The notes below the pieces were generated by a model. The model searched no databases and was not told where the DNA came from. It was given only the letters and a program-made list of their open reading frames with translations. Positions 4,808 through 34,637 of a stretch of 40,017 nt of DNA are shown here, in pieces. A program made the translations under genes and the position numbers. Within the stretch, counting starts at the first letter, position 1; each line of letters starts with the position of its first letter. The stretch lies in NCBI GenBank assembly GCA_024697185.1, contig JAILGB010000001.1:1-40017 (forward strand), read 5' to 3'. The stretch comes from Opitutales bacterium (GTDB lineage: Bacteria > Verrucomicrobiota > Verrucomicrobiia > Opitutales > UBA953).

Positions 4808-7800
4808 ATGAAGTTTACAAAACAAGCTCTCTTTACAGCATCGCTGCTCTTGGGCGCAACATTGCTCGCCACAGCTCGCGAGACGGAAACGCTCTCCGGC
4901 GGGACGGTAAATATGGACGACTTGGTGAGCGGAGCGTCCAACACAAATTTCTCGAGAAACTATGTGATTGAGGAGGGCAGCTCGGTCGTCTTCAATGTGG
5001 AGCAGTCCGTAACGCTTTTGGGACGCCTTTTGGGATCTTCGACGCAGACGCCGGGAACAAATTTGTTGGTCGGGTCTTTTGCTCCGCTCAACAATACTTC
5101 GTTGACGATCCAGGGCGGTGGCACTTTCGAATACAAAGGTTTTCATGATATCGGGTATTATGATGCGATTCCCTATATGATTCCTGACAGTTTGTCGGGT
5201 ATCGGTCGTTCCAACGCCTTCAATTATTATGCATCTTCGCTGATTGTTCCGGATGAAACGACCGGATGGACGGACCCGTCGGTGACGGCGTATTCGGGAT
5301 CGTTGACGATTTCGGGCGACACGATAGTCAAGGTTTCCGGATATTTGACCCAATATGTCGAATATCCTCCGAATGAAGGCTCCGCCTGGGTCGGTGTTCA
5401 GGACTTGACATTGACGGACACTTCGACGATTAGTTTTGCATCGTCGAGAAAAAATTTGTTGGACGATGTTGATGATTTCAATTTGGCCAGCTCGAAGCGC
5501 GACCAGAAAACGAATTCGCTGAACTTTTTGAAAAATGTCAAAGCCTCGGCGGAATCGACGATTGAAATGGGAATTGACCGCAACTCTCTTACTTTGGACG
5601 GTTCGCGGCAGTATTCTTCGATGCGTTTGATCGTGCAGACGGATGCGGGCGAGACCTCCACGATTGGGCATTTGAGCGGCACGGGTCGCGTTTATTTTGT
5701 CGGGACCTACAACAATACGGCGGCGGATGCTTCGCAAGTTTATTTTACCAGCCAGGCGCAGTTTTTGACCGGCACCACGGCAGGATTGACGAGCACCTAT
5801 ACCGGAGATGATTCCGGGCCTACTACATTTGACCGCGAGGAGTGGTTGTCGTATATCAAAAGCATTACGGGAAAATATGATACGACGGGCGAGACGATGA
5901 CAACGGGCGCCATGGCGGATGTCTTCTTGAGTGGCGGTCATTTCTATATCGGCTATAATCCTGATACGGGGACTGTCGTAAATAATATTTTCGCTTCGGC
6001 GTCTTCCTTGCAGACGGGAATTCGTATTAGAAATGCCAATCACGAGGAGGTTGACGAGAGCGAGTATATTCCCAACTTTGTCCCGAACAATTGGGCGAAT
6101 GACGGTGTTGCTCTCTATGTTTACGGCACGCAGATCGTCAACAATTTCCAGTCGTTCTGCTCATTCGAAGGCGAGAGAATCGGACTTTTTGACGAGGTGG
6201 CGGTGGGTAATAATCTCAATCAAATCGTGGGGCACTCGGAAGTTTATTCTTCTGTGTTTGCCGCCGCTCCTCGTGTTCAGTTGGAGTCCAATGCCGTTCT
6301 CGTCATCAATCAGGACAAATATCGTGACGGCGTTTTTTCGGGCGTCTTTTTGGGCGACCCGACAACTCAGGACGGCGTTGTCATCAAGGCTGGCGAGGGC
6401 AATTTTGTCCATTATTTCTTGAACGACAATAGCGCTTTTGGGACGGATGACATCGCGATTGAGCGTTTGATTGTCTTGGAAGGTATGTGGCTCACCTCGC
6501 CGACAGCGTTGTCAACGACCTCCGTCAGTATCGGCAAGGGTGCGATCTTTAATCTGCTTCAAAACGACCATGCGTTTTTAAGGGGAACGATCAAGGCGGC
6601 AACCGGATCGGAACTCCGTCTGTCGCGCGACACGCTCTATGCGACGGAAGACGATGAGGGCAACGCCATTCAGGCGTCCTACATTGAGACGGGTCATGTG
6701 GATGAAAACGGTAAAAAAGTGGCGGAAGGATTGTTTATTACCATTAATAACGGGACCATGTTCCGTAGGGATAATGTATTTGAAACGACAAACCACGGCG
6801 CTAATGGTGTTGTCGAGGTTCTCAATGCGCAAGACGAATTTTACGGCACGGTCACAGTCGGTCGCGGTATGACGTTGAGCTTGGGTTCCGACCAGTCCGA
6901 AAACTATTCCAGCGCATTTATCAACGCGGAAAAAATCGTGCTTTGCGGTGAAGAGAATTTTACCGATGACAACACGATCAATTCTTCTGCGCTCATCATC
7001 GGCTCAGCGGGAACGTCGTCTGCGACATTCCATCCCAGCTATGTTCAGGTTTTGAGTCTTTATTACAAGGACGAGAACGGGAATATTTTGCCGGGCGTCG
7101 GTGCCTATGACGAGGTGCGCATCAACAGCTATGCGACGCTGGCTTGGAACATCAAGGCGAGCGAGGCGGCGAGTTTTGACGGCATCTCTTTCAGTGCCGG
7201 CGGTGCGTTCGTCAAGATGAATCTCGGCACCTTGTCGGTGAAAGACGCTTTGGGCTATGTGGGCGCGACGTCAATTTTGAACGGTGCTTTGACGCTTGAG
7301 GCCGCCAATGTGATCAATCACAGCTCCGGCTTGATTTTGGCGGGCGGTGCGAGCGTCTTGAACAATGTGAGAAGAGGTCAGGTCGTCAACGCGCTTGTCG
7401 GCGGTGAAGGCACGACGCTGACCATGCAGGGCGCGGCGCTGACGGTCGGCTGGTCGGCTGTCGATACGACGGTGGATTCGCCGGTCGCCAACTATTTTCT
7501 CGCGACTTACAACGGCGACGACAAGTATTTGAACGGCGGGCTCAATTTGCTCTCGGGTGTTGCGCTCAACACGGATCAGGAAGACGCCATCGAAGCGCTC
7601 TTTGGCGATCTGGGTTCGGAGAGACCCGACTTTAACGGTGCGCCGATCACGGTTGCCGACACGGTCGGCTACATCGCCGATCCCGCGCTTTTGAAAACGT
7701 CGCTGGCGCGTTCGCACGCGGTGATTGATTCGGCGACTTGGGCGACCATCGCGGGAACGATCGGAACGGATCTGTCGCTCTTCGATTATTTCCGGGACAC

Positions 7801-10800
7801 ATTTTCTGTCGCTAACATCCGGGCGTTCGTGGATTCGTCGCCTTCGGGCTGGACGCCGCGCCAGTGTGAAATCTTGCTGGAGTTTGCAAAATCCCTCGAA
7901 GCGAGCGACCGTTATCTTTTTGAAAAAGAGGGTTCGTCCTACAATTTGACGGCGGCGGGTTTTGCGATTCTCAAAGACAGCTACGCGATGAAATATTGGG
8001 CTGGGCAGGTCTTGGGCAATGCCGCTTTGGCGGATTTGTCGCTCTACAACTTTATCAGCAACTATGACGCGAATTATTCGTTCCGCTTTACGGCGTCAAA
8101 TGTCAGCGCGCTTTATTCCCAATACGGGATCACGGCGAGCGACGACGCGTCTTTTGCCGCGGCAATCGGTGTGTCGGTCGATTTGACCGAGGACTACGGT
8201 CCGGCTTTTGCGGGAACGATCGACGGTGACGGGACTCGTCTGATCAAGCGCGGCGCGGAGACGCTGACGCTTACGGGCATCAACCAGTATTCGGGTTCGA
8301 CGACGGTCCAGCGCGGCGAGTTGCGTGTCGATTATGATGCGATTCCCCGCACGACCGCCATCCGTGTCGAAAGCGGTGCGGTGTTGACGATCGTCTCCGA
8401 GGCGCTTTACGACTCGGCGGGAACGCCGGTCGCGGCGGAATTCAATCCCGATGACGGCTCGGCGATCTTGTCCGGCGCGGGAACGCTTTTGAAGGACGGC
8501 GCGGGAACGCTCGAGATCGTCAGCGCGTTGGCGACGGAGCCGGCGTCTGTGGCGGATGATTTCACCGGCGCGATCATTGTCGGCAAGGACACTTTGCAGA
8601 TCGATATCACCACGCGCGAATCTTTGGCGTCGGACATCTACATCAATACGGATGCCGTTTTGCGTTTCTCCCTGGGCAAAGACGCTGCCACGGACAGTTT
8701 CGCCTTGGCGGGCGGGATTTACGGTAACGGCACGATTGTCGTCGAAGGCACGGGCAGTCTCGTTTTTGCCGACGGCGACGCGCTCGCGAGTTCGGACAAC
8801 TCGACGGTGGTGTTCCGGACGGACGGTGACACTGCCCTCAAATTTGTCTTGGACGGCTATGCCGGCACGGAGTCGATCCAGGACTTCCGTGAAGACGCGA
8901 ATTTTGTCGTGGCGGACGGCAGCTCCTTAGAGTTCAACATTTCCTCCCGCAACGGTCTCGAATATGTTTATGGCGGCACGATCAACGCCGGTGCGTCGGC
9001 TGCGCCTGCGGGAACGCTGCGTGTCTCGGGAACGACCTACGCTTCGGAAGCCTTCGGCACCGGACGCAAGTTGAAGCTGTCGGGCTCCGGAATCAATCTT
9101 GATGAAATCGATGTGACCGATCAGGCGATCTTGACGCTCGCGGCTTCGGGAACGGCTAAAGCGAACACCGTTGTCGTCGGCTCTTCCGCCGTAGAGGCGA
9201 AACTGGTCGTCGCCGGCACTTTGGATGTGGCGAAACTGACCGTCGAGTCCAAAGGCTTGCTCGAAAACACGGGAACGATCACCGCGGGAACGCTCACGCT
9301 CAACAATGCGACGACGCTCACCACGGGAACGCTCAAGGTGGCGAACGCCTTGGAAGTCAACGCGGACAGCACCTTGACGGGAACGCTCGATTTGAGCGAT
9401 GCCGCCGTGACCGTCGCGGACAATGTCAATCTGGCGCTTTCTTCGGCGACATTGACGACAAATACCGGCACGGTGTTCACGCTGGGCGAAGCGGCGACGA
9501 TGAGGGTCACGGGAACGACTTTGACGGATGTCCTGGAAAAACTCTCGACCAGCGCGGCAAGCTCCACGCTGATCATCGACGGCGGCTCTGTCGCCTATGA
9601 CAGTTCGGCGATTTTCTCGGGAAGCATTTCTCTGGTCAACGGCGCGACGATGAATGTTGACAGTTCGATTTCGGGAATTACGGCTGTGTCGGGCGACGGA
9701 ACGATCTCCGTTTGCCGTTCGACGACTTCGCCGGCCAATCTGACGGTCAATGTTGATTCGGATGTCGTGTTTACGGGAACGATCGCGTTCAATGTCGATC
9801 CTGATATTGATGTGACGGGCTCGGCGGTCTGGTCGATTGACGGGGCGTCATTTACCGCTGTCGGCACGATCAATGTCCACGCCGGCGCCGGTGTCGGTGT
9901 CGGCATGACGCCGGTTTCGGGAACGACGATTACGCTTTTCAACAACGCGGTCATCGCCTTGGTCCCCGCCTATACGGGAACGGCGACGGCGCAGACGTTT
10001 GCGGTCACCTCATCGGAATCGGTTGACGATTTGACTTTGCGCGTCAACGGCACGCTCGATTTTGCGACGACGACGCCGGAGGCGATTTTCAATCTCGCAA
10101 CGGACACCTATGGCATCACCCTTTCCAATTTTGACGGCGATTTGACGCTTCGCAATCTCGATTCCTTGGGCGCGAATGTCGATTTGGAGACCTATGGCGT
10201 CAACGGTGCTCTGATCCTCGAGGGCGGCACGACGGACTCTGTGGCTCATGACGGCTCAATCGGCGGTAACGGCAATCTGACGATCAAAAACAAGGTCGAT
10301 CTGGCTGCGACTTCCCATAGTTTTGCGGGAACGCTGACGGTGGTTGCCGCTGCGACGGCAAACTTTAACAATGCGACTCTCGCGACGACGCGGGTGGATG
10401 TCGAGTCGGGAGCGACGCTTGCCGGCGGCATTACGCTCGGCAGCAGCGGTGTTGTGACCTTTAACGGCGCCAAATATACGGCGACGCTTGACGAAGGTAA
10501 TCAGATCGTGGCGGGAACAATCGCGGGAACGGTCGATGTCACGGTTGTCGCCGACGATGCGGCGCGCGGCGTCCCCTATACGCTTTTTGTCGCGGACGAT
10601 CTCACGGGATTGACTGTCGGCAGCGTGGCGACGAGCGGTGACCAGCCGGTGATGATCGCTTCGACAAGCAACCAGGTGCTCGTTTATGTCGCACAAGACA
10701 ACTTGAGCGGCGTTGCCGGAGCCAATTACCACGACGGTCTCGGCTCCTTCCTCGGAGCTTTGAGCGCGCTCGCGCGTCCGGATTCGACAGGAGCGGTTTC

Positions 10801-11833
10801 CAGCGTTCTCGGCAGACATCTCAATATGATTTCGGCGGGACAGTTGAGCAATGAGACAGAACTTCTTTCGCCGTTGAGCTATGCGTCCTTGGTCTCGATG
10901 CCGGCAGCCGGTTTCGCTTCCGACCAGCGCTCGGTCAGCCAACGCCTCGAACAGCGTCTCTATGACAACGTTTCCCTGAACGCCATTTGGGATTATGCGG
11001 CGGACTGGGAATTCTTCGCTCAGGCGCAAGGCAGTTCCGTCACGGCGGGAACGAATTCCAACTCGATGACTTACGATTTCAACACCTTCGGCGTCTTCGC
11101 GGGTATGGATCGCAAGTTCTCGCATGAGTTCGCGAGCGGTTTCGCGATCGCTTATGACAGCGGCAAGGCGAGGATCCACCACAGCGGCGGCCGCATCGAC
11201 GGCGGACAGCTTCGCGCGGTCGGTTTCGCGGGCAAGATGCTGACAAATTCGCTCGCCCTCAATTCGGGCGTGACCGTCGGTTTCGCCAGCTATGACATCC
11301 GTCGTCAAAACGGTCTTGCGACATGCAAGGACGATACGAACGTTTTCAACGCCGGCGTTTTCGCGGATTTGGTGGCGGCGCTCCCGCTCAGCGAGTTTGT
11401 CGATGGCGAACGCATCGATCTGATGCCGCATATCGGTTTGGCATTGGGCTATTACAATGTCGGCGGCAGCAATGAGAGCGGCGCGGTCGGCGCGCTCGAT
11501 GTGGACCGCTTTAGCGCTCTCTCGCTCCAGGCGAAAGTCGGTGCGGAGCTGGCGGCGATCTTCAGCATCGCGGAATACAATGCGCGTGCGACACTTGACG
11601 TTTCCCTGATCCACGAGTTCCTCGACGACGAGGTGGAAATCGATGCGTCGATCGAAGGCAGACCGTTCTCCGTTGACGCCCGTGCGCTCTCGAAGACTTT
11701 GCTCTCCATCGCGCCGGGATGCACGCTCGATCTCGATTCAAAAACTTCGGTTTACATGAACTACGAGTTCCGCGCGGGAACGGAATCGGTGATGTCGCAC
11801 AGCGCCAATATCGGTTTCCGCCATCGCTTCTAA
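4808..11833 (+). CDS. Giant autotransporter, complete, 2341 aa
   Basis: Complete autotransporter adhesin-like protein. The ATG at 4808 opens a good Sec signal peptide (charged M-K-F-T-K-Q, hydrophobic core to about residue 22, cleavage probably after A-T-A). No Shine-Dalgarno is visible; the leader is A/T-rich. The passenger has a less repetitive first ~850 residues. A predicted alpha-helical insert follows at about 895-1135 (rich in Leu/Ala/Tyr, e.g. around D-Y-F-R-D-T-F). Next comes a dense beta-helix region with A-G-T-L-T-L-T-G strands. A linker starting near residue 1975 (N-Y-H-D-G-L) and a barrel from about 2070 to 2341 end in G-F-R-H-R-F. Linker and barrel match the upstream gene, so the two are paralogues. 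A strong intrinsic terminator follows 20 bp after the stop. Surface location is well supported; the binding target is unknown. Confidence 0.92.
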   Translation: MKFTKQALFTASLLLGATLLATARETETLSGGTVNMDDLVSGASNTNFSRNYVIEEGSSVVFNVEQSVTLLGRLLGSSTQTPGTNLLVGSFAPLNNTSLTIQGGGTFEYKGFHDIGYYDAIPYMIPDSLSGIGRSNAFNYYASSLIVPDETTGWTDPSVTAYSGSLTISGDTIVKVSGYLTQYVEYPPNEGSAWVGVQDLTLTDTSTISFASSRKNLLDDVDDFNLASSKRDQKTNSLNFLKNVKASAESTIEMGIDRNSLTLDGSRQYSSMRLIVQTDAGETSTIGHLSGTGRVYFVGTYNNTAADASQVYFTSQAQFLTGTTAGLTSTYTGDDSGPTTFDREEWLSYIKSITGKYDTTGETMTTGAMADVFLSGGHFYIGYNPDTGTVVNNIFASASSLQTGIRIRNANHEEVDESEYIPNFVPNNWANDGVALYVYGTQIVNNFQSFCSFEGERIGLFDEVAVGNNLNQIVGHSEVYSSVFAAAPRVQLESNAVLVINQDKYRDGVFSGVFLGDPTTQDGVVIKAGEGNFVHYFLNDNSAFGTDDIAIERLIVLEGMWLTSPTALSTTSVSIGKGAIFNLLQNDHAFLRGTIKAATGSELRLSRDTLYATEDDEGNAIQASYIETGHVDENGKKVAEGLFITINNGTMFRRDNVFETTNHGANGVVEVLNAQDEFYGTVTVGRGMTLSLGSDQSENYSSAFINAEKIVLCGEENFTDDNTINSSALIIGSAGTSSATFHPSYVQVLSLYYKDENGNILPGVGAYDEVRINSYATLAWNIKASEAASFDGISFSAGGAFVKMNLGTLSVKDALGYVGATSILNGALTLEAANVINHSSGLILAGGASVLNNVRRGQVVNALVGGEGTTLTMQGAALTVGWSAVDTTVDSPVANYFLATYNGDDKYLNGGLNLLSGVALNTDQEDAIEALFGDLGSERPDFNGAPITVADTVGYIADPALLKTSLARSHAVIDSATWATIAGTIGTDLSLFDYFRDTFSVANIRAFVDSSPSGWTPRQCEILLEFAKSLEASDRYLFEKEGSSYNLTAAGFAILKDSYAMKYWAGQVLGNAALADLSLYNFISNYDANYSFRFTASNVSALYSQYGITASDDASFAAAIGVSVDLTEDYGPAFAGTIDGDGTRLIKRGAETLTLTGINQYSGSTTVQRGELRVDYDAIPRTTAIRVESGAVLTIVSEALYDSAGTPVAAEFNPDDGSAILSGAGTLLKDGAGTLEIVSALATEPASVADDFTGAIIVGKDTLQIDITTRESLASDIYINTDAVLRFSLGKDAATDSFALAGGIYGNGTIVVEGTGSLVFADGDALASSDNSTVVFRTDGDTALKFVLDGYAGTESIQDFREDANFVVADGSSLEFNISSRNGLEYVYGGTINAGASAAPAGTLRVSGTTYASEAFGTGRKLKLSGSGINLDEIDVTDQAILTLAASGTAKANTVVVGSSAVEAKLVVAGTLDVAKLTVESKGLLENTGTITAGTLTLNNATTLTTGTLKVANALEVNADSTLTGTLDLSDAAVTVADNVNLALSSATLTTNTGTVFTLGEAATMRVTGTTLTDVLEKLSTSAASSTLIIDGGSVAYDSSAIFSGSISLVNGATMNVDSSISGITAVSGDGTISVCRSTTSPANLTVNVDSDVVFTGTIAFNVDPDIDVTGSAVWSIDGASFTAVGTINVHAGAGVGVGMTPVSGTTITLFNNAVIALVPAYTGTATAQTFAVTSSESVDDLTLRVNGTLDFATTTPEAIFNLATDTYGITLSNFDGDLTLRNLDSLGANVDLETYGVNGALILEGGTTDSVAHDGSIGGNGNLTIKNKVDLAATSHSFAGTLTVVAAATANFNNATLATTRVDVESGATLAGGITLGSSGVVTFNGAKYTATLDEGNQIVAGTIAGTVDVTVVADDAARGVPYTLFVADDLTGLTVGSVATSGDQPVMIASTSNQVLVYVAQDNLSGVAGANYHDGLGSFLGALSALARPDSTGAVSSVLGRHLNMISAGQLSNETELLSPLSYASLVSMPAAGFASDQRSVSQRLEQRLYDNVSLNAIWDYAADWEFFAQAQGSSVTAGTNSNSMTYDFNTFGVFAGMDRKFSHEFASGFAIAYDSGKARIHHSGGRIDGGQLRAVGFAGKMLTNSLALNSGVTVGFASYDIRRQNGLATCKDDTNVFNAGVFADLVAALPLSEFVDGERIDLMPHIGLALGYYNVGGSNESGAVGALDVDRFSALSLQAKVGAELAAIFSIAEYNARATLDVSLIHEFLDDEVEIDASIEGRPFSVDARALSKTLLSIAPGCTLDLDSKTSVYMNYEFRAGTESVMSHSANIGFRHRF

Positions 11834-11852: not shown

Positions 11853-11887
11853 GCGCGGGAACGACAAAAAGTTCCCGCGCTTTTTTT
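11853..11887 (+). terminator. Intrinsic terminator made from an inverted GCGGGAAC pair
   Basis: A perfect 10-bp stem (GCGCGGGAAC at 11853-11862, GTTCCCGCGC at 11871-11880) encloses an 8-nt loop and is followed directly by seven T. It closes the autotransporter pair. Each arm is a copy of the window-wide repeat word, the same arrangement by which uptake sequences form terminators in Neisseria and Haemophilus. Confidence 0.93.
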
Positions 11888-12018: not shown

Positions 12019-12765
12019 ATGTCAGGACATAGTAAATGGGCGACGACAAAACGCCACAAAGGTCTTGTTGACGCAAAGCGCGGCAAGATTTTCTCCAACC
12101 TTGCCAAGGAAATCACGCTCGCAGCCAAAGCCGGCGGCGGCGATCCCGATTCCAACGTGCGTCTGCGTGCGGTGCTCGTCCGCGCTCGCGCAGCTTCGAT
12201 GCCCAAGGACAATATCGATCGTGCGATCAAAAAAGGCACGGGCGAGATTGAGGGCGCGACCTATGAAGAATTGGTTTATGAAGGTTATGCGCCTGCCGGC
12301 GTAAGCGTGATTGTCGAAGTCATGACCGACAACAAAAATCGCGCCGTCAGCGAAGTCCGCTCCGTCTTTACCAAAAACGGCGGCAACATGGGCTCTTCGG
12401 GCTCGGTCGCATTCAACTTTAACCGCAAGGGTCAGATTATCATCGCGGCGGACCAGACGACGGAAGACACGCTGATGGAAGTCGCTCTCGAAGCCGGCGC
12501 TGAGGATATCGTCAACAACGGCGACCATTTTGAAGTGCTTACCGCCATCGCCGATTTTGACAAGGTTTGCCAGGCGCTCGACGAAAAAGGCATCAAGCCG
12601 ACCGAGTCCGCTTTGGCATATCTGCCTTCGGTGACGGTGCCGGTCAACGATGCCGATACCGCGGCAAAGTTGCAAAAACTCACCGATGCGCTCGAAGATC
12701 TCGACGACGTCAAAGCCGTTTGGACCAACGACGACATCGCGGACGGACTTTTGCCCGAAGAATAA
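12019..12765 (+). CDS. yebC: YebC/PmpR-family protein
   Basis: YebC/TACO1 family protein of 248 aa, the usual length. It begins with the family signature M-S-G-H-S-K-W and the conserved K-R-H-K-G...D-A-K-R-G-K-I-F-S-N-L-A-K-E-I block. It also carries the G-G-G-D-P-D and M-P-K-D-N-I-D-R-A-I-K-K-G-T-G segments and N-G-G-N-M-G-S-S-G-S-V. Members act in the cytoplasm, either helping ribosomes through proline-rich stretches or as DNA-binding regulators; the sequence alone does not decide which. The start follows a terminator and a ~130-bp A/T-rich leader (11888-12018) with no clear Shine-Dalgarno and no convincing -35/-10 pair. It heads a + strand run with the NUDIX gene 55 bp downstream. It is not next to ruvC/ruvA here, unlike in many bacteria. 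Confidence 0.96.
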   Translation: MSGHSKWATTKRHKGLVDAKRGKIFSNLAKEITLAAKAGGGDPDSNVRLRAVLVRARAASMPKDNIDRAIKKGTGEIEGATYEELVYEGYAPAGVSVIVEVMTDNKNRAVSEVRSVFTKNGGNMGSSGSVAFNFNRKGQIIIAADQTTEDTLMEVALEAGAEDIVNNGDHFEVLTAIADFDKVCQALDEKGIKPTESALAYLPSVTVPVNDADTAAKLQKLTDALEDLDDVKAVWTNDDIADGLLPEE

Positions 12766-27344: not shown

Positions 27345-29339
<1,995 letters not shown>

Positions 29340-29401: not shown

Positions 29402-29434
29402 GCGGGAACGAGGGCGGACAAACGGCGTTCCCGC
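29402..29434. repeat. Inverted repeat-word pair between divergent genes
   Basis: GCGGGAACG (29402-29410) and CGTTCCCGC (29426-29434) can form a 9-bp stem with a 15-nt loop, followed on + by GCTTTT. It lies between ftsH (-) and the djlA-like gene (+), where a terminator is not expected for either. It could insulate the two promoters or be a plain copy of the repeat. Confidence 0.7.
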
Positions 29435-29480: not shown

Positions 29481-30284
29481 ATGGGTATTCTCGGAACATT
29501 TATTGTCGGTGCCATCATTTATACGATTTGGAACCGCCTGAGCAATGCGATCGCGGCGGACGGCGAGACGACGGACACGGGAACGCGTTCCCGCGAGAGA
29601 GCCGGTTTTGAAGAAGAGCCGCGCTACACCGACGGCCGCGATTGGGAAAAATGCTTTTTCCGCTGTCTGGGAAAACTGGCAAAGGCGGACGGCCGCGTCA
29701 GCGCCGAGGAGGTGGCGTTCACGAAAAGCCTCTTTAAAACTTTTTCCTACTCCCCGGAGACGATCCGCACGATGCAGGTGGAATTTAACCGCGGGCGCGA
29801 CAGCTCCAAGACTTTTGAAGAACTGTTGAACGAACTGGCGCAAGAACTGGTCGGCATCCGCGCCTCGCGAACGCTTGTCGCCAGCGTCGTCCAGAGTTTT
29901 TGCGCCATCATCGCCATCGACCACCATATTCATCCCGACGAGCGGCAAATGCTCGAGGCGGCGGGCAGGATTTTGAACGCGCGTTCCGTTGTCGAGGACT
30001 TTTTTAGGGAACGCGGCGGGAACGGACAGCGTTCGCAGGAAAACCGCTCATATACCCGAGCGACTTACGGACGCGCCAACGACGCCTATCAGGTGCTCGG
30101 CGTTCCCGCAAGCGCCAGCGACGCCGAGGTCAAAAAAGCCTACCGCAACAAAATGCGCGAATTTCACCCCGACAAAATCCAAGGGCTCGGCATCTCGGAA
30201 GCCTACATCGAGTTCGCCAAGCAAAAATGCCAAGAAGTCAACGACGCCTACGATTTGATAAAACGCGAGCGCGGCATCAAGTAG
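29481..30284 (+). CDS. djlA: DjlA-like membrane-anchored J-domain co-chaperone
   Basis: A 267-aa DnaJ-like protein of DjlA architecture. An N-terminal TM segment (about residues 4-18, G-T-F-I-V-G-A-I-I-Y) is followed by a TerB-like helical domain at about 55-175 with K-A-D-G-R-V-S-A-E-E and A-I-D-H-H-I-H-P-D-E. A C-terminal J domain at about 200-267 has Y-Q-V-L-G-V-P and H-P-D-K at 229-232, the loop that stimulates DnaK ATPase. It should face the cytoplasm from the inner membrane. Residues 31-40 contain a 16-bp palindrome of the repeat word. The next gene, icd, starts 94 bp later and has its own leader, so an operon is not certain. Confidence 0.88.
   Translation: MGILGTFIVGAIIYTIWNRLSNAIAADGETTDTGTRSRERAGFEEEPRYTDGRDWEKCFFRCLGKLAKADGRVSAEEVAFTKSLFKTFSYSPETIRTMQVEFNRGRDSSKTFEELLNELAQELVGIRASRTLVASVVQSFCAIIAIDHHIHPDERQMLEAAGRILNARSVVEDFFRERGGNGQRSQENRSYTRATYGRANDAYQVLGVPASASDAEVKKAYRNKMREFHPDKIQGLGISEAYIEFAKQKCQEVNDAYDLIKRERGIK
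29578..29593. repeat. 16-bp perfect palindrome of two repeat words inside djlA
   Basis: CGGGAACGCGTTCCCG, read by the gene as part of T-G-T-R-S-R-E-R in the linker after the TM helix. Two word copies overlap at the central CG. Confidence 0.9.
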
Positions 30285-30378
30285 CCCCGCAGCGTCGCGC
30301 GCCTTTCGCCGTTCCCGCGGCGGATGCTTTATTCTTTATTTTTAAAAATCCAATCTTTAAAATAAAAAAAGGAAATTT
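30285..30378 (+). promoter_or_regulatory. Leader between djlA and icd
   Basis: Contains a small hairpin (CGCCG at 30307-30311, CGGCG at 30318-30322) with the repeat word TTCCCG as its loop, then an AT-rich stretch suited to a promoter but without a convincing -35/-10 pair. Just before the icd ATG there is an A-rich AAAAAAAGGAAATTT with GGA eight to ten bases upstream of the start. It is one of the few purine-rich ribosome-binding-like sites in the window. Confidence 0.4.
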
Positions 30379-34592: not shown

Positions 34593-34608
34593 AGCTTAAA
34601 GCTTAAAG

Positions 34609-34637
34609 AAGCGCGCCACGGGAACGGCGCGCTTTTT
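34609..34637 (+). terminator. Intrinsic terminator after the AsmA-like gene
   Basis: A 9-bp stem AAGCGCGCC (34609-34617) / GGCGCGCTT (34626-34634) with an 8-nt loop ACGGGAAC, then a T run interrupted by one G (to about 34646). The loop itself is a repeat word. Placed 16 bp after the stop, it ends the icd unit. Confidence 0.88.

Follow-up and report, generated by a model that had tools for sequence, protein, structure and literature searches.

The hairpin and T-tract at positions 11853-11887 of the window form a strong predicted intrinsic (Rho-independent) terminator, and it is highly probable that this terminator is one of a large set built from copies of a single word, CGGGAACG/CGTTCCCG, that is scattered in extreme excess over the genome. 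The window is the whole stretch of DNA analysed, a 40,017-base contig of a draft genome of 1,589,236 bases (assembled in 32 contigs, of which two are masked). Most of the nearest named relatives of its YebC come from Opitutales-type Verrucomicrobiota. The co-option of this abundant word into predicted terminators is well supported.

The hairpin at 11853-11887 and its neighbourhood

The stem of the hairpin has 10 bp and a calculated folding energy of -20.5 kcal/mol, or -28.0 kcal/mol when the flanks are included (RNA folding). It starts 19 nt past the stop codon of the gene at 4808-11833 and lies 138 nt ahead of yebC (Table 1), and it combines the features of an intrinsic terminator, namely a GC-rich hairpin, an immediate T-tract and a position downstream of a stop codon. 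In the initial annotation this element was described as a terminator with a 10-bp stem of which both arms are copies of the word. The terminator is borne out by the sequence, the run of seven T and the fold. With respect to the arms, the description is accurate for the left one, whereas the right one carries only GTTCCCG, preceded by A instead of C, and this copy of seven out of eight bases counts against the proposed origin from the word.

Other word-bearing hairpins had been listed along with it. The one given as 34609-34637 was recovered at 34606-34637 as a predicted terminator with a 12-bp stem, a T-rich tail and the word in its loop. The hairpin given as 30307-30322 does carry the word across its loop (30305-30324), and with its weak tail it is doubtful as a terminator. 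At 29402-29434 the inverted pair exists, its 7-base cores lying 17 nt apart, but a terminator is ruled out there by the position between divergent genes (27345-29339 on the reverse strand and 29481-30284 on the forward strand) and by a structure that lacks a T-tract. Given that the word occurs 185 times in these 40 kb, the window by itself is weak evidence, and the genome-wide test is the decisive one.

Table 1. Features of the window that bear on the terminator and on other word-bearing hairpins.
Feature	Position	Strand	Basis or remark
Gene ending before the terminator, 2,341-aa protein with autotransporter beta-domain	4808..11833	+	Pfam PF03797, E 9.1e-31; gene call
Predicted terminator hairpin: GCGCGGGAAC, 8-nt loop GACAAAAA, GTTCCCGCGC	11853..11880	+	Sequence and exact match
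Full word CGGGAACG in left arm, final base within loop	11856..11863	+	Sequence
GTTCCCG, incomplete copy of the word in right arm (7 of 8 bases)	11871..11877	+	Sequence
T7 tract (TTTTTTT), abuts the stem	11881..11887	+	Sequence
Next downstream gene, yebC/TACO1 family	12019..12765	+	Pfam PF01709 and PF20772
Inverted word pair, no T-tract	29402..29434	.	Flanked by divergent genes
Weak terminator-like hairpin, word at 30310-30317 across loop, after gene 29481-30284	30305..30324	+	Fold -10.8 kcal/mol; weak T-tail
Predicted terminator, word at 34619-34626 in 8-nt loop, convergent genes on either side	34606..34637	+	Fold -19.6 kcal/mol

Predicted word-derived terminators across the genome

Genes were called with a simple in-house caller, and the 670 gene ends followed by 40 nt or more of available space were evaluated with an in-house scorer of hairpins followed by a T-tail. 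Terminators were predicted at 231 of these ends, against 14-21 in dinucleotide shuffles. The exact 8-mer is present in 175 of the 231 predicted terminators (76%), whereas random 36-nt downstream segments contain it in 34% of cases. In 130 of the predicted terminators the word occupies both arms, 113 times in the majority orientation (GTTCCCG...CGGGAAC) and 17 times in the minority orientation that had been flagged at 11853 (CGGGAAC...GTTCCCG). The word spans the loop in a further 26 predicted terminators, of which 20 read CGGGAACG; in these, the two ends of the word should be able to pair around a GGAA tetraloop.

Downstream of stop codons, majority pairs whose cores are 3-14 nt apart reach a density of 1.456 per kb, compared with 0.019 per kb in genes, a 75-fold difference, and minority pairs are 13-fold denser after stop codons than inside genes. 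Since the density of the words is itself 3.3- to 3.6-fold higher downstream of stop codons, density alone predicts approximately 12-fold for pairs, which places the majority type about sixfold beyond chance and the minority type not beyond it. The expectation of the initial annotation that inverted pairs would be commoner downstream of genes than inside them is, therefore, upheld for the majority type, while the minority orientation as a class is no commoner than word density predicts, which counts against the explanation of the 11853 hairpin. When neighbouring words 7-12 nt apart are considered, 84 majority, 13 minority and 88 direct pairs are found between genes, and 11, 15 and 131, respectively, inside genes. 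Overlapping copies with zero spacing, which form the palindrome GTTCCCGCGGGAAC, number 65 genome-wide, 51 of them inside genes.

Inverted word pairs are concentrated at gene ends, and their tails follow the direction of the gene. For forward genes the downstream T-count at pairs is 6.7 out of 10, for reverse genes the upstream A-count is 7.1, and between convergent genes both counts are approximately 6, compared with approximately 2 inside genes. The preferred orientation is the one that brings the A-rich flank of the word into the tails. The hairpin at 11853 has the other orientation; minority pairs after forward genes have T-tails too (6.4, n=7), which is consistent with this hairpin. The word peaks 21-27 nt past stop codons, and apart from this terminator peak single words in both orientations show a second one within 10 nt after stop codons.

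Upon transcription, the GC-rich stem and the U-tract at 11853-11887 would make RNA polymerase pause, and the transcript would be released after the autotransporter gene. With a word approximately every 300 bp, two opposite copies after a stop codon would offer a ready-made stem. Selection would mainly retain the CGTTCCCG...CGGGAACG pairs, given that in this arrangement the A-rich 5' flank supplies both an A-tract and a T-tract; the hairpin at 11853 would combine the opposite arrangement with a T-run of its own. The predicted hairpins would be expected to terminate transcription in the cell, and the abundance of the word would be maintained by a separate process, for which biased DNA uptake is the most likely candidate.

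The word in the genus and in its relatives

Terminators in other species were counted by pattern, complemented by small sequence samples. Each of the eight genomes of the genus carries the word above a control pattern; six contain more than 5,000 copies, G001 has 1,362 and G006 has 546. Majority pairs exceed minority pairs in every one of the eight, including these two word-poor genomes (majority/minority counts of 143/63 in G000, 124/77 in G002, 150/39 in G003, 128/44 in G004, 124/47 in G005, 97/29 in G007, 73/8 in G001 and 13/0 in G006). In G001, words are approximately four- to fivefold rarer than in the word-rich genomes and majority pairs are only approximately halved; five of the five majority pairs in the sampled DNA have tails. 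The smaller reduction of pairs than of words in G001 is what independent selection for termination predicts. The proposal of terminators made from inverted copies of the word, in the style of Neisseria and Haemophilus, is supported, at the level of prediction, both genome-wide and genus-wide, with the 11853 hairpin as an example of the rarer orientation.

In relatives from other genera of the family and order, the word (extended form GCGGGAACGC) is not enriched, and sister genera have intrinsic terminators without it at similar or lower rates in the small samples considered. The orientation bias is likewise absent from sister genera. No alternative word (dialect) was found in the word-poor G001 and G006, where the mismatches at aligned sites are scattered and at background level; the scarcity of the word in these two genomes may reflect decay, or the word may never have been gained. 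Because close relatives include word-rich, word-poor and word-free genomes, hypotheses on how such words arise and disappear can be tested.

Two observations on other repeated sequences were made in these samples. In G006 (L199-L208, L231), decamers of the CCACCAACCC type occur 83 times against 0.4 expected, and C/G runs are also very frequent. In G009, from a sister genus (L214-L218), a different word, AGCGTGCCG/CGGCACGCT, is approximately tenfold over-represented (36 in 100 kb versus 3.5 expected) and may represent a further abundant word or a family of repeats.

Abundance of the word and the DNA uptake question

Genome-wide counts were run on the genome joined from its separate stretches (1.59 Mb). 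The word CGGGAACG/CGTTCCCG has 5,322 copies, one per 298 bp. A third-order model predicts 410, or 129 if the words are masked beforehand, and the count corresponds to 13 to 41 times the expectation. Its single-mismatch neighbours are near background or raised at most approximately six-fold. The word is found on both strands, in all frames and between genes, where its density is 2.5 times higher than inside them, and isolated genic copies, written as CGTTCCCG, keep the A-rich 5' flank and a 3' C. A short non-palindromic word in extreme genome-wide excess on both strands has the form of a DNA uptake sequence. A literature search that included uptake sequences and Verrucomicrobia found no paper naming this word; the combination of the two subjects yielded a single review.

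We are inclined to think that the word is indeed a DNA uptake sequence, in which case a pilus-associated receptor would prefer DNA that contains it, transformation would spread it, and the terminators would be a by-product. Such a role explains the abundance of the word and is compatible with, not opposed to, the terminator explanation. In addition to the excess, the placement in all frames and intergenic DNA, and the flank retained even by isolated genic copies of this non-palindromic word, it is favored by the confinement of the word to one genus and by its positional conservation: in alignments of word-rich genomes, taken from a few loci that surround conserved genes, the word was retained at 21 of 39 sites, compared with approximately 10% for comparable 8-mers (22% in one genome). 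ComEC, DprA, type IV pilus ATPases (T2SSE-family) and pilins are encoded in all eight genus genomes, with a cluster of minor pilins at G000:C2:7401-9709 as one example. Nonetheless, being present in all eight, the competence genes fail to distinguish word-rich from word-poor genomes and were rejected as a discriminator, and ComEC is also present in word-free relatives. ComEA was not found, the strong HHH_3 match being a frame of approximately 800 aa that is probably Tex. The terminator design had been taken initially to strengthen the comparison with uptake sequences. This is fair as an analogy, and the likeness is strong, but it does not by itself demonstrate uptake, because co-option needs only an abundant word.

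It is possible, and we put this forward tentatively, that the word is maintained instead as the site of a modification enzyme, as a repair or recombination signal, or by another DNA-binding protein, with the terminators merely exploiting it. To our knowledge, some abundant genomic words, such as the cyanobacterial HIP1, have no proven uptake role, which fits this possibility. Genomes, however, usually avoid restriction sites rather than enrich them. Furthermore, the strand bias of the word is weak and mostly tracks the gene strand with no strong replication-type skew, which led to the rejection of a Chi-like signal.

A reading in which the pairs arise by chance, through the crowding of words in intergenic DNA, and play no part in termination is very improbable. 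The 13-fold enrichment of minority pairs fits it, being near the 12-fold obtained from squared word density, but for the majority type it is already contradicted by the orientation and tail tests (an 84-to-13 bias and gene-directed tails), along with the fixed offset from stop codons and the persistence in word-poor genomes.

Comparison with known uptake words

In Neisseria and the Pasteurellaceae, the uptake word is present in 54-55% and 16-29% of terminators, respectively; the +- orientation is preferred because in it the tails are provided by the word's A-rich 5' end, and inverted pairs cluster where genes converge and seldom occur within genes (Kingsford et al. 2007, PMC1852404). The genome described here resembles Neisseria, with its GCCGTCTGAA pairs, in that the stems consist of inverted pairs of a genome-wide word, the A-rich 5' flank enters the tails in the favored arrangement, and pairs are frequent between convergent genes but scarce within genes. 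In both, more than half of the predicted terminators contain the word, 54-55% there versus 76% here by differing prediction methods. The two differ in that both the words and the phyla are unrelated.

Haemophilus and other Pasteurellaceae (AAGTGCGGT) share the principle of co-option and an AT-rich extended flank (PMC1852404), but their word is unrelated and is found in the smaller share of terminators given above (16-29%); in H. influenzae it occurs approximately once per 1.2 kb, versus once per 0.3 kb here. The densest neisserial dialect, kingDUS of Kingella oralis, has 5,918 copies in 2.4 Mb, approximately 2.5% of the genome (Frye et al. 2013, PMC3630211). Its extreme density is comparable, but it is a dialect of the neisserial word, to which CGTTCCCG bears no resemblance. 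The possibility that the present word is itself a dialect of the neisserial DUS or of the Pasteurellaceae USS was rejected by direct comparison, since CGTTCCCG/CGGGAACG resembles neither GCCGTCTGAA nor AAGTGCGGT.

If the uptake role is true, this lineage would be the third to have uptake words. The finding, in another phylum, of an equally dense or denser word that follows the same orientation logic in its predicted terminators points to repeated evolution of such words and of their reuse in termination. The wider proposition is that a third, independent lineage (Verrucomicrobiota, Opitutales-type) evolved its own uptake word, that this word was convergently co-opted into most of its intrinsic terminators, and that the terminator copies outlast single words in two word-poor species; in our judgement the case for this proposition and the case against it are evenly balanced.

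Stretches without the word

The word is missing from some stretches of the genome outside the window. The 15 kb at G000:C15:15698-30711 have zero words and 35% GC, versus 51.5% for the genome, with genes resembling mnmG, mnmE, dnaN, hisB and hisH as read by eye; this is possibly an origin region or a mis-assembly. The view that word-free stretches are simply foreign DNA was not upheld, given that several contain core genes. Two further ones are located at G000:C12:34752-42513 and G000:C28:15527-24490. One of them looks like ribosomal protein and rpoB genes, and the other is a glycosyltransferase-type region of 40% GC.
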